This document shows positions 41,757 to 44,907 of a stretch of DNA of 64,000 nt, piece by piece (position 1 is the first letter of the stretch; every line of letters begins with the position of its first letter). Below the pieces are notes generated by a model, which was given only the letters and a program-made list of their open reading frames with translations, was not told the DNA's origin and made no database searches. The DNA is taken from positions 1-64,000 of the forward strand of contig NZ_WEZF01000022.1 of NCBI RefSeq assembly GCF_009177065.1. The letters are read 5' to 3'. The DNA is from Tautonia marina (GTDB taxonomy: Bacteria; Planctomycetota; Planctomycetia; Isosphaerales; Isosphaeraceae). The translations under genes were made by a program, and so were the position numbers.

Positions 41757-43342
41757 GCCCGATCGGCCAGCACACACATCGCCGCGTTCCGACCGTTCAC
41801 CGCCATGACACTGCCGCCGGGATGCGTCCCGGCGCCGCAGAGATAGACCCCCGGCATGGGAGTTCGGCTGAACAGGCGGCGATCCCACATGAACGACGGC
41901 AGACATTCCCCTTGAAAAATATGTCCGCCCGAGAGGCCGACTCGACGTTCGATGTCGGGCGGCCCCAGGACCTCGATCGCTCGCACCACCTCGGGAACAT
42001 TCGAGCAGTGCCGTGCGAGCGAGTCGAGAATCGCGTTGACCACCTCCTCGCGTCGACTGTCCCAATCCCCCTCGGCAAAGGTGTGAGGAACATACTGAGC
42101 GAAGACGCTCATCGTCTGCATTCCTGCGGGAGCAACACTCGGGTCCGCGGTTGTCTGGAAATAGAGTTCCGACCAGAGTCGATCCGGCAACCGTCCGGCA
42201 CGGGCCTGGGCAAACGACGCGGCCCACTCGTCCTTCGTGAGCGGTGTGTTGACCTGGCCTCGATGATGAGGCTCGTCGGTGCCCGGCCGGGCGCGAAAGT
42301 TCGGCAACTCGCTGAGCGCGACGTTGGCCTTGACCGTGCATCCGATCCTCGGGATGGCATCGACCCGATCTCGCCAGGAGGGATCGGCGAGGTTCCCGAG
42401 CATTGCAAGCGTTGATTTCGGATCGGCGTTGGAAACAACCACTGACGTGCAAAGACGTTCACCTGATTCCAGTTCAACTCCCTCACCCGGCACAATCCGG
42501 GCGACGTGCAAACCGCTGACGATGACGGCCCCAGCCTCTCGGGCAGCCTCGGCGATCAGGAAGGAGACCATCCCCATGCCTCCTTCAACATAACCCCAGG
42601 ATCCGGGAATCCCGCCGAGTCGCCCCGATTGGTGATGAAAGTGGATCGAGGCGGTTCCAGGGTCGTGTGGGCTGGCGTTGGTGCCGATCACCCCCTGACC
42701 GAGATAGGCCATTTGAAGGTACTCGGAGCGGAAAAAGCGTTCGACATACTCAACCATCGACCACTCGAACAGCAGTGATCGAGCCTCGGAATCGTTACCG
42801 AGGCGATCCTCAATGACCGCTCGGGACGGTTCCGGATCCAGCCACAAATCCGCGTCATTGGGAGGCCGGAGCGCATCACGAAGCCGTCGCTTGACCTGGG
42901 AAAAGGCTCGGAACCCTTCAAGATCCTCCGGGCAGAGACGGCGGATTTCCGCCTCGCACCGCTCGTCGTCGTCCCAGAGTTGAAGACTCGCCCCATCGTC
43001 AAACGGCACGAACAACCCCGACGTGGCCGGGGTCCAGCGAAGCCCTCGATCGATCAACCTCAGTTCATCCATCACTTTCGGATGCAGCAACCCCAGCAAA
43101 TACGCACAGGGAGACACAGAATAACCTGGCCACGGCTCATGGATCGTACAAGCTCCACCGATCGGATCACGAGCCTCCAGGACCAGAACGTCCATCCCGG
43201 CCCGAGCGAGATAAGCCGCGCACGTCAGCCCATTATGCCCCGCCCCCACGATGATCGCATCCCAGCGTTTCGCGGTCAGTTCGCCGAGCGAAACGTCCTC
43301 GCCCAATCGTCTCCAGGCCGGATGGTTTCGAGAGAACGTCAT
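41744..43342 (-). CDS. CrtI/PYROXD2-like FAD-dependent oxidoreductase
   Basis: This 532-residue flavoprotein has an N-terminal FAD-binding fold ('DAIIVGAGHNGLTCAAYLARAG', 'VLEARDPIGGACTI'). The C-terminal closing motif is 'PGVYLCGAGTHPGGSVMAVNGRNAA', shared by phytoene-desaturase-type enzymes and the PYROXD2 group. It lacks other carotenoid genes nearby, so a pigment role is not supported by context. Its start overlaps the stop of the thiE fusion gene as ATGA, so translation is coupled and the two are probably one transcript. Confidence 0.88.
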   Translation of the reverse strand: MTFSRNHPAWRRLGEDVSLGELTAKRWDAIIVGAGHNGLTCAAYLARAGMDVLVLEARDPIGGACTIHEPWPGYSVSPCAYLLGLLHPKVMDELRLIDRGLRWTPATSGLFVPFDDGASLQLWDDDERCEAEIRRLCPEDLEGFRAFSQVKRRLRDALRPPNDADLWLDPEPSRAVIEDRLGNDSEARSLLFEWSMVEYVERFFRSEYLQMAYLGQGVIGTNASPHDPGTASIHFHHQSGRLGGIPGSWGYVEGGMGMVSFLIAEAAREAGAVIVSGLHVARIVPGEGVELESGERLCTSVVVSNADPKSTLAMLGNLADPSWRDRVDAIPRIGCTVKANVALSELPNFRARPGTDEPHHRGQVNTPLTKDEWAASFAQARAGRLPDRLWSELYFQTTADPSVAPAGMQTMSVFAQYVPHTFAEGDWDSRREEVVNAILDSLARHCSNVPEVVRAIEVLGPPDIERRVGLSGGHIFQGECLPSFMWDRRLFSRTPMPGVYLCGAGTHPGGSVMAVNGRNAAMCVLADRAQVV

Positions 43343-44907
43343 TGCTCAGTGTCCTGCCACTCAACCAGTCGAGCCTTGAACGACTGCGCGGCCAGCCGTG
43401 GTCGATCGGCATGAACCACCGCAGACGACACCGCGATCCGGGTTGCTCCGGCCTCGAGGACCTCGTCCAGATTCTCCTCGGTGATTCCCCCAATCGCAAA
43501 CCAGGGAATCGTGGTTTCCTCAGCGACTTGCCGGACGTAGCTCAGTCCGGCAAAGGCATCAAAATCTTTGGTTCGACTGGGAAAGACTGGACCAACCCCG
43601 AGATAGTTCGCCCCATCTCGGATGGCCGCATCGCGCTGAGAGGGTTCATGTGTCGAAACACCGATCAGCATGTTCGGCCCCACCACGCGGCGAGCATCAC
43701 GCACCGAAAGGTCATCTTGCCCCAGATGAACCCCATCGGCCGACGCGAGCCGGGCCAGGTCTGGCCGATCATTCATGATGAAGCGCACCCCGGCGCGAGC
43801 CGTCAGAATGCGAACCTCTCGCGCTCGCTGGAGGATGACTCGATCGGGGAATCCTTTCTCCCGGTACTGAATCACGTCGGCACCTCCCGCGATCGCCTCC
43901 TCGACAATCCAGGTCAGGTCGCCGAGGGTCGGAAGGCCACCGACCAGGACATACAAACGTGCCTGTTCGAGTGCTCCGCGAGCAACCACGGCGGCCATCA
44001 CGCGCTTCTCAAGCGTATAGACATCATAACGCAAGACTTCGAATCGGCCTGCAAGCCACTGATCGAAGACCTTGGTATACTCTTCCAACGTCCGCAGAGC
44101 TTCGGCGGTCCGTTTGAAATTGGCGATCAAGACAGCCCGAGGATGTTCTCGGGCCCCCTCGTCGCTGGCCATGATGTGGGTGCCGACATCACCCGGCGTG
44201 TCGCGTGCGGTAATCAGCCAATCGGGGTCAAATCCGCGAATCGCGTCGCCGAAGCGGTGCCGGACATCCTTCAACCGTCGGGTCAGACCAGGATCTTCCA
44301 GCACGAATCGCGAGTAATCCTCGATAACCCGCAAACCTTCGCGTGCACGGTTCGCCGATGCGTCGAGAATACGAGCGAGGTCGTTCACTTCTCCGGGATC
44401 GGCCAGCACGGGGGCCGGCAAATCCTCGGACATTGGGATGGGGCCCGACTCCAGCGCGTTGACCCCGGCAATCCGCTCCATCAACAGATCCATCTGGAGC
44501 CCAGCCTCGCTCAGGTGGACCGCAACCGGATCGTTGGAGCCGAGCAATCCGACCAGCAAATGCTCAGTCCCGATGGCTTGCGAGCGATCGAGAGACCGAG
44601 CCCGAATGGTGGCCTCGGTCAGGGTCAAGCGCAGGGAATGGGAATGAGGCAGCCCCCCCCGATCCTCCTCCTCCCCGGTTACCAGCTCCGGTTCGGCCCC
44701 AGGAAGTTCAACCGGCTCCGCAATCGTTCGAAGCTCCTCCAGCGAGATGCCGAACTCGGCAATCATCACCGAGGCCCGGCTCTCGGTTTCCCCGATCAAC
44801 GCGGCCAGGAGATCGATCGGTTCCACAGACTCGGATTGGCGCAGTCGGGCAAGCTGCTCGGCACGTTCGAGAACGCGCTGGGCACCTGCCGTAAATGATT
44901 CCCGCAT
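43339..44907 (-). CDS. thiE: Clp_N-ThiD2-ThiE fusion, thiamine phosphate synthase
   Basis: This 522-residue protein is a three-part fusion. Residues 1-150 hold two Clp repeat-domain motifs ('FTAGAQRVLERAEQLARLRQ' with 'VEPIDLLAALI', then 'TEATIRARSLDRSQAIGTEH' with 'LLVGLLG'), as in ClpC/ClpB N-domains. Residues about 178-302 are ThiD2 ('ILDASANRAREGLRVIEDYS'), linked to HMP-phosphate phosphorylation. Residues about 315-515 are ThiE with 'VIQYREK', 'FIMNDRPDLA', 'DGVHLGQDD', 'GVGPVFPSRTK' and 'WFAIGGI'. ThiE joins HMP-PP and thiazole phosphate. ThiD2-ThiE fusions are known; the Clp_N addition is the odd part. No AAA+ ATPase domain is present. Confidence 0.92.
   Translation of the reverse strand: MRESFTAGAQRVLERAEQLARLRQSESVEPIDLLAALIGETESRASVMIAEFGISLEELRTIAEPVELPGAEPELVTGEEEDRGGLPHSHSLRLTLTEATIRARSLDRSQAIGTEHLLVGLLGSNDPVAVHLSEAGLQMDLLMERIAGVNALESGPIPMSEDLPAPVLADPGEVNDLARILDASANRAREGLRVIEDYSRFVLEDPGLTRRLKDVRHRFGDAIRGFDPDWLITARDTPGDVGTHIMASDEGAREHPRAVLIANFKRTAEALRTLEEYTKVFDQWLAGRFEVLRYDVYTLEKRVMAAVVARGALEQARLYVLVGGLPTLGDLTWIVEEAIAGGADVIQYREKGFPDRVILQRAREVRILTARAGVRFIMNDRPDLARLASADGVHLGQDDLSVRDARRVVGPNMLIGVSTHEPSQRDAAIRDGANYLGVGPVFPSRTKDFDAFAGLSYVRQVAEETTIPWFAIGGITEENLDEVLEAGATRIAVSSAVVHADRPRLAAQSFKARLVEWQDTEQ

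Follow-up and report, generated by a model that had tools for sequence, protein, structure and literature searches.

Relatives of the fusion enzyme

Thiamine enzymes in which ThiD2 is fused to ThiE are already known, as are Clp N-domains on proteins without an ATPase. Here we describe a gene that combines the two, found in a stretch of 64,000 nucleotides from Tautonia marina (positions 1 to 64,000 of contig NZ_WEZF01000022.1; hereafter the window). The gene, which we call thiDE, occupies 43339-44907 on the minus strand and encodes a protein of 522 residues with the order Clp N-domain, linker, ThiD2, ThiE. What is new is that thiDE stands head-to-head with clpC in many related genomes, and that in one family its 5' part appears as an inverted copy of that neighbour. 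In the open-access literature we found no metabolic enzyme that bears a ClpC N-domain throughout a bacterial class; domain databases may list the N-domain-ThiD2-ThiE architecture.

The closest described systems each share one part of this protein. The enzyme part is that of PRK02615 (PF17792 plus PF02581), with residues 174-515 scoring above the equivalog cut-off; the PRK02615 model begins at ThiD2, however, whereas ThiDE has 175 residues before it (Clp N-domain and linker). The N-domain of ClpC, as in B. subtilis and S. aureus ClpC and M. tuberculosis ClpC1, has the same two-repeat fold over its whole length (Z 20.9-20.0), but ThiDE lacks the AAA+ rings, has lost most equivalents of E32, K85 and R9, and evolves far faster. 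Chloroplast ClpT1 and ClpT2, which bind the ClpPR core, are stand-alone Clp N-folds without an ATPase (Z 16.2 for ClpT1 and 16.9 for ClpT2), and differ in having no enzyme attached. Mycobacterial ClpC2 likewise lacks AAA+ domains and bears a Clp N-domain (Z 18.5); according to the available part of PMC10030653 it differs in having a dimerisation domain of its own, in acting as a repressor and a cyclomarin sponge, and in carrying no metabolic enzyme.

A complete Clp N-domain on a predicted thiamine enzyme

The thiDE gene is a single open frame that runs from an ATG at 44907 down to 43339 with no internal stop. A preliminary description of the window had proposed, from the letters alone, two Clp repeats joined in frame to ThiD2 and ThiE in a chain without an ATPase domain. 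Its domain order and coordinates proved right, and the strand, which it did not give, is minus. All three Pfam families that it named lie on this one chain: Clp_N (PF02861; E 6.4e-8, 33.1 bits against a cut-off of 20.7, in two stretches), PF17792 (E 3.2e-40) and TMP-TENI (PF02581; E 9.8e-58). The same scan found no AAA+ family, the remainder of the chain being ThiD2-ThiE; the two AAA+ modules and the M-domain of a ClpC unfoldase are both absent. When the N-domain was scanned alone, the Clp_N match improved to E 2.1e-9.

Structure prediction, also suggested in the preliminary description, agrees with two Clp repeats. An AlphaFold2 model of residues 1-152 (44452-44907, minus strand), built with 88 domains in the alignment, has a mean predicted local distance difference test score (pLDDT) of 90.5, a predicted template modelling score (pTM) of 0.85, and eight helices in two four-helix repeats. 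The first repeat (about 44719-44907) has its helices within residues 7-63 and the second (about 44452-44646) within residues 90-151. Among solved structures, the four best matches are ClpC or ClpC1 N-domains, which align over 139-142 residues with Z from 20.9 to 20.0; the N-domains of ClpB, ClpC2, ClpA, ClpT and ClpV follow at lower rank. A chance Clp_N match is ruled out by the Pfam score, the AlphaFold2 model and the fold matches to ClpC N-domains. The linker that follows (residues 153-177; 44377-44451) is modelled with low confidence. In a full-length model from 59 rows (pLDDT 91.7, pTM 0.71), residues 151-170 have block means of only 59 and 56, with residues 158-160 below 50; together with the pTM, this fits an N-domain hung on a flexible linker.

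The remainder of the protein is a thiamine phosphate synthase by its NCBIfam match (PRK02615, 372.9 bits against a cut-off of 335). The ThiE barrel (residues 328-497; 43417-43926) falls within a region, residues 314-514, that matches B. subtilis ThiE structures at E about 1e-35. Invariant across 59 rows are R349, K351, N379, D380, S418, K447, G473 and G474, which we take to be the ThiE active-site residues, after B. subtilis ThiE. The fusion is also the sole TMP-TENI match in the window genome. The ThiD2 part (residues 179-301; 44005-44373) belongs to a family with hydroxymethylpyrimidine phosphate (HMP-P) kinase activity, which we take from the available part of PMC12345177. From its sequence, ThiDE is a genuine predicted thiamine enzyme of the ThiD2-ThiE type, with a complete ClpC-like N-domain.

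The window genome also has a classical full-length ThiD (Phos_pyr_kin, E <1e-70) at G000:C30:48317-49075. A search of 59 class genomes detected such a gene in only 9, and the fusion is therefore probably the only predicted HMP-P kinase where it is missing. One of the two class genomes without ThiD2 (G394) has a classical ThiD. We also observed that the window ThiD2 has no sequence relative among solved structures, where only ThiE- and ClpC-type chains match at E 0.001, and that the ThiD2 part of the full-length model is all helical.

The architecture is widespread in the class

ThiD2 was detected in 205 of 392 genomes in a sample of the phylum Planctomycetota and in 146 of 148 in a sample of the window's class, the latter as drawn by genome search. 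We fetched about 5 kb on each side of thiDE from 118 of these 146 class genomes and from 20 ThiD2-positive genomes outside the class, and scored the N-domain with a purpose-built profile (E 1e-3; L184 and L229 are included among the positives). The preliminary description had suggested such a survey. The N-domain is present in 89 of the 118 class genomes and in none of the 20 others. Four long frames outside the class (L247, L250, L252 and L254) had no extra Pfam domain.

Family by family within the class, the domain is found in f1, the family of the window (18/18), f101 (26/26), f102 (3/3), f104 (4/4), f2 (31/33), f5 (2/2), f108 (1/1), f109 (2/2), f111 (1/1) and f4 (1/3). It is missing from f3 (0/16), f106 (0/6), and f105, f107 and f110 (0/1 each). 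Independently named contigs carry the same in-frame fusion, the nearest relative being that of Tautonia sociabilis (74%). This recurrence argues against both chance and an assembly artefact. The preliminary description had allowed for a missing Clp_N match and for two separate genes joined in error; the Clp_N score exceeds the curated cut-off, and a single-frame fusion in 89 of 118 genomes rules out two genes. The architecture is old and widespread in the class. Of 88 aligned ThiDE N-domains, 76 are recognised by the Pfam Clp_N model with E no higher than 0.01 and 12 are not; in a mixed set 55 of 96 full-length rows match it at E 0.01.

The thiDE gene often stands head-to-head with clpC

A divergent clpC lies within 1.5 kb of thiDE in at least 47 of the 118 class genomes, from 11 families, and in none of the 20 others. 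The figure is a lower bound because some fetched regions end with the contig (such as L153, L180 and L224). By family the adjacency is found in f2 (20 genomes), f3 (11), f106 (6), f5 (2), f109 (2), and in one genome each of f4, f105, f107, f108, f110 and f111. Of these 47 loci, 24 have the N-domain and 23 do not. No other neighbour of thiDE is as widely shared; a gene of 243 codons occurs in 27 loci, on the clpC side. Several conserved blocks stand in the intergenic stretch, about 600 bp long, of six genomes that belong to a single genus.

An inverted copy of clpC in one family

Two genomes of one genus in family f111 point to how such a fusion can arise. In the first (G498, locus L234), the N-domains of ThiDE and of the adjacent ClpC share 56% identity over 151 residues. 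Their DNA also matches, at 71% over 230 bp (E 1.5e-24), with the clpC 5' end in inverted orientation. In the second (G500), the ThiDE N-domain is 51% identical over 149 residues to the adjacent divergent ClpC, and short inverted DNA matches connect the two genes. The captured domains of G498 and G500 are 45% identical to one another. In both genomes examined, the f111 N-domain is visibly, as these matches indicate, an inverted copy of the neighbouring clpC 5' end. Here an inverted duplication has placed a further N-domain copy before thiDE and in frame with it; a gene can thus gain such a fusion by capturing its neighbour's N-domain.

In a rough tree of N-domains (FastTree with quick searches, resting on few columns), L234 groups with the ClpC side with support 99, and all other ThiDE N-domains stand separately. 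The equally rough enzyme tree places nearest to L234 rows that have the older N-domain type. Together these positions suggest that there were likely two events, an old capture whose source was likely ClpC and then a second capture or a replacement in f111. Capture of a ClpC N-domain by thiDE has probably occurred at least twice.

Several comparisons bear on the source of the old domain. The window N-domain is 30% identical to that of its own ClpC over 147 residues (BLASTP, 50.4 bits, E 9e-12) and 23% identical to its own ClpB over 120 residues (28.5 bits); its best PDB profile matches are ClpC. A profile of 89 ThiDE N-domains, with the recent copy in L234 excluded, scored 96.5 bits against ClpC and 59.7 against ClpB; with L234 included, the contrast was higher (114 vs 62 bits). 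Counting only the best single stretch, the 89-domain profile gave 66.5 bits for ClpC vs 59.7 for ClpB, and for this reason we rate a ClpC origin of the old domain as likely. While a clpC origin can be read directly from the f111 loci, for the remaining class we infer it.

A ClpB-type domain was considered and rejected, as the direct comparison favours ClpC. In a single-sequence NCBIfam scan, ClpB (22.3 bits) and ClpA (13.7 bits) both stayed far under their cut-offs, and no ClpC model appeared among the matches. The window genome contains three frames with Clp_N: two of about 900 residues, of ClpC and ClpB type, and the fusion.

Does the N-domain connect the enzyme to ClpC?

We propose that the N-domain folds autonomously and acts as a protein-binding module that would connect the enzyme to the ClpC network, through ClpC clients, adaptors or ClpC itself, and that the amount or activity of the thiamine enzyme would thereby follow proteostasis. 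Counted in favour were the architecture and fold, the distribution within the class, the closer likeness to ClpC than to ClpB, the head-to-head neighbourhood, the recent copy in f111, an arginine kinase gene of the McsB type (a ClpC partner) in 147 of 148 class genomes, and a ratio of nonsynonymous to synonymous substitution rates (dN/dS) below 1. The kinase does not discriminate, because families that lack the N-domain also encode it. A trap study (PMC8889267, in the part available) names THIC among the interactors of chloroplast CLPC1; this is a lead only, as both organism and enzyme are different. In our judgement a putative protein-binding role that links the enzyme to the ClpC network is possible but short of probable. 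The fuller claim, that repeated inverted capture of a neighbour's ClpC N-domain has placed the enzyme under the ClpC protease system, seems rather unlikely. If true, an N-domain that binds ClpC partners would link protein quality control directly to thiamine supply, and an enzyme encoded beside an unfoldase gene would have a general route to a module that reads proteostasis. The clpC-thiDE arrangement with its recent inverted copy in any case offers a concrete and checkable mechanism of domain capture.

Several results weigh against this plausible but putative ClpC link. First, the N-domain changes fast. We compared 84 pairs with enzyme identity of at least 75%, of which 76 had finite dS (they are non-independent pairs, with genomes in common). 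The N-domain has a median dN/dS of 0.34 (range 0.03-0.73), below 1 in all 76, and the enzyme part a median of 0.15 (0.03-0.33) in the same pairs; the N-domain value is the higher in 74 of 76. Across the 23 genomes that have both genes, ThiDE N-domains are on average 28% identical in pairwise comparison; the corresponding means are 51% in ThiD2-ThiE and 96% in the ClpC N-domain. By these estimates the ThiDE N-domain is under purifying selection yet fast-evolving, while a module tied to conserved partners should evolve more slowly.

Second, several contacts of the ClpC N-domain are gone. The available part of PMC12583610 assigns the phosphoarginine (pArg) pockets to E32 and to E106 with T7, and names K85 and R9 as resting-state contacts. 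We read these positions in 88 aligned ThiDE domains (L234 included), numbered through the window genome's own ClpC, with the register at the start of repeat 2 less sure. The E32 place (pArg2 pocket) holds Glu in only 4 of 88 rows, the K85 place Arg in 27 and Lys in 7, and the R9 place Gly in 48 and Ala in 32. The T7 place is Thr in 60 rows and Ser in the other 28, and the E106 place Glu in 59 and Asp in 17; these two are largely kept. The window domain has Ile at the E32 place and Glu at the E106 place, and so lacks the pair of Glu residues that would mark a pArg receptor. On this alignment, the ThiDE N-domain retains the fold and part of one pocket, without the full ClpC contact set. Because several known contacts are not retained, binding to the ClpC network would rely on contacts of the N-domain's own.

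Third, the distribution is uneven. The domain is lacking in 29 of 118 class genomes, including whole families, and 23 of the 29 still adjoin clpC. Conversely, f1, f101, f102 and f104 keep it without clpC beside thiDE in any of their 51 genomes, that of the window included, and in independent pairs we found no association between N-domain and adjacency.

These results also fit an N-domain with no working link to ClpC: a self-folding extension that helps the enzyme to fold, stay soluble or assemble, or one retained only since a misfolded form would harm the protein. The domain changes fast with its fold preserved, has lost ClpC-specific contacts and is repeatedly absent from families that keep the enzyme. 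Its conserved positions (T6, A9, R11, A16, leucines, A99 and TEHLL) are mainly fold-forming in our reading. A neutral extension does not, however, readily account for retention in 89 of 118 genomes (44 of 44 in f1 plus f101), nor would it need the fresh clpC copy in f111 beside sister rows of the older type. We give this explanation the same weight as the ClpC link, somewhat short of even chances. An unrelated oligomerisation or ligand domain, raised in the preliminary description beside a tether, is equally credible as the tether.

The domain could instead act as a decoy or sensor, the role suggested for mycobacterial ClpC2: it would bind peptides, toxins or pArg-marked clients before they reach ClpC, with the enzyme as its carrier. 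In PMC10030653, in the part available, ClpC2 is an ATPase-less Clp N-domain protein to which cyclomarin A binds and which protects ClpC1; its domain is among our structural matches, and the arginine kinase gene is nearly universal in the class. Against this, 84 of 88 rows have lost the pArg2 Glu and 29 of 88 have another residue for the pArg1 Glu, the K85 place, which cyclic peptides contact (PMC12583610, likewise in part), changes rapidly, and we see no reason for a vitamin enzyme to bear a decoy. We consider it improbable.

The lack of association between domain and adjacency would be expected if clpC and thiDE were neighbours by history and the N-domain had arisen as a side effect of an inverted gene order prone to mutation, with no regulatory meaning. 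Adjacency lost in four families that keep the N-domain, and kept in 23 genomes without it, agrees with such an accident, as does a search of the 47 clpC-thiDE intergenic stretches, which found no CIRCE- or CtsR-like motif and one LexA-like palindrome that we judge to be chance. The divergent pair is nevertheless kept over 11 families, with only the 243-codon gene on the clpC side so widely shared among other neighbours, and an accident of gene order alone seems to us a slim prospect.

Adjoining genes and related frames

Rfam had no match in the 64-kb window, and in 14 neighbour loci it found one tRNA and one small RNA family and no thiamine pyrophosphate riboswitch. The next gene in the window, P0002 (41744-43342, minus strand), encodes a flavin adenine dinucleotide (FAD)-dependent oxidoreductase. 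Its ATG overlaps the thiDE stop (ATGA), and the two genes are therefore likely co-transcribed. A Thi4 match in P0002 is weak, at 27.8 bits for a cut-off of 26.2, and limited to the nucleotide-binding motif.

The conserved gene of about 243 codons between thiDE and clpC (L171:6216-6944, plus strand, and 26 further loci) is present in f3, f4, f5 and f105-f111 and looks to us like a membrane or tetratricopeptide repeat protein. At L175:3416-4306 (minus strand; G257), between clpC and thiDE and in the direction of clpC, there is a frame of 297 residues, counted between stops. It holds three Clp_N stretches but lacks an ATPase, and in 79 columns its first part shares 80% identity with the adjacent ClpC. 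Short frames of 156-236 residues with strong Clp_N matches, too small for an ATPase, occur in three further class genomes (G227:C40:165321-165962, G411:C1:408937-409095 and G418:C24:4842-4994) and are either stand-alone N-domain proteins or fragments.

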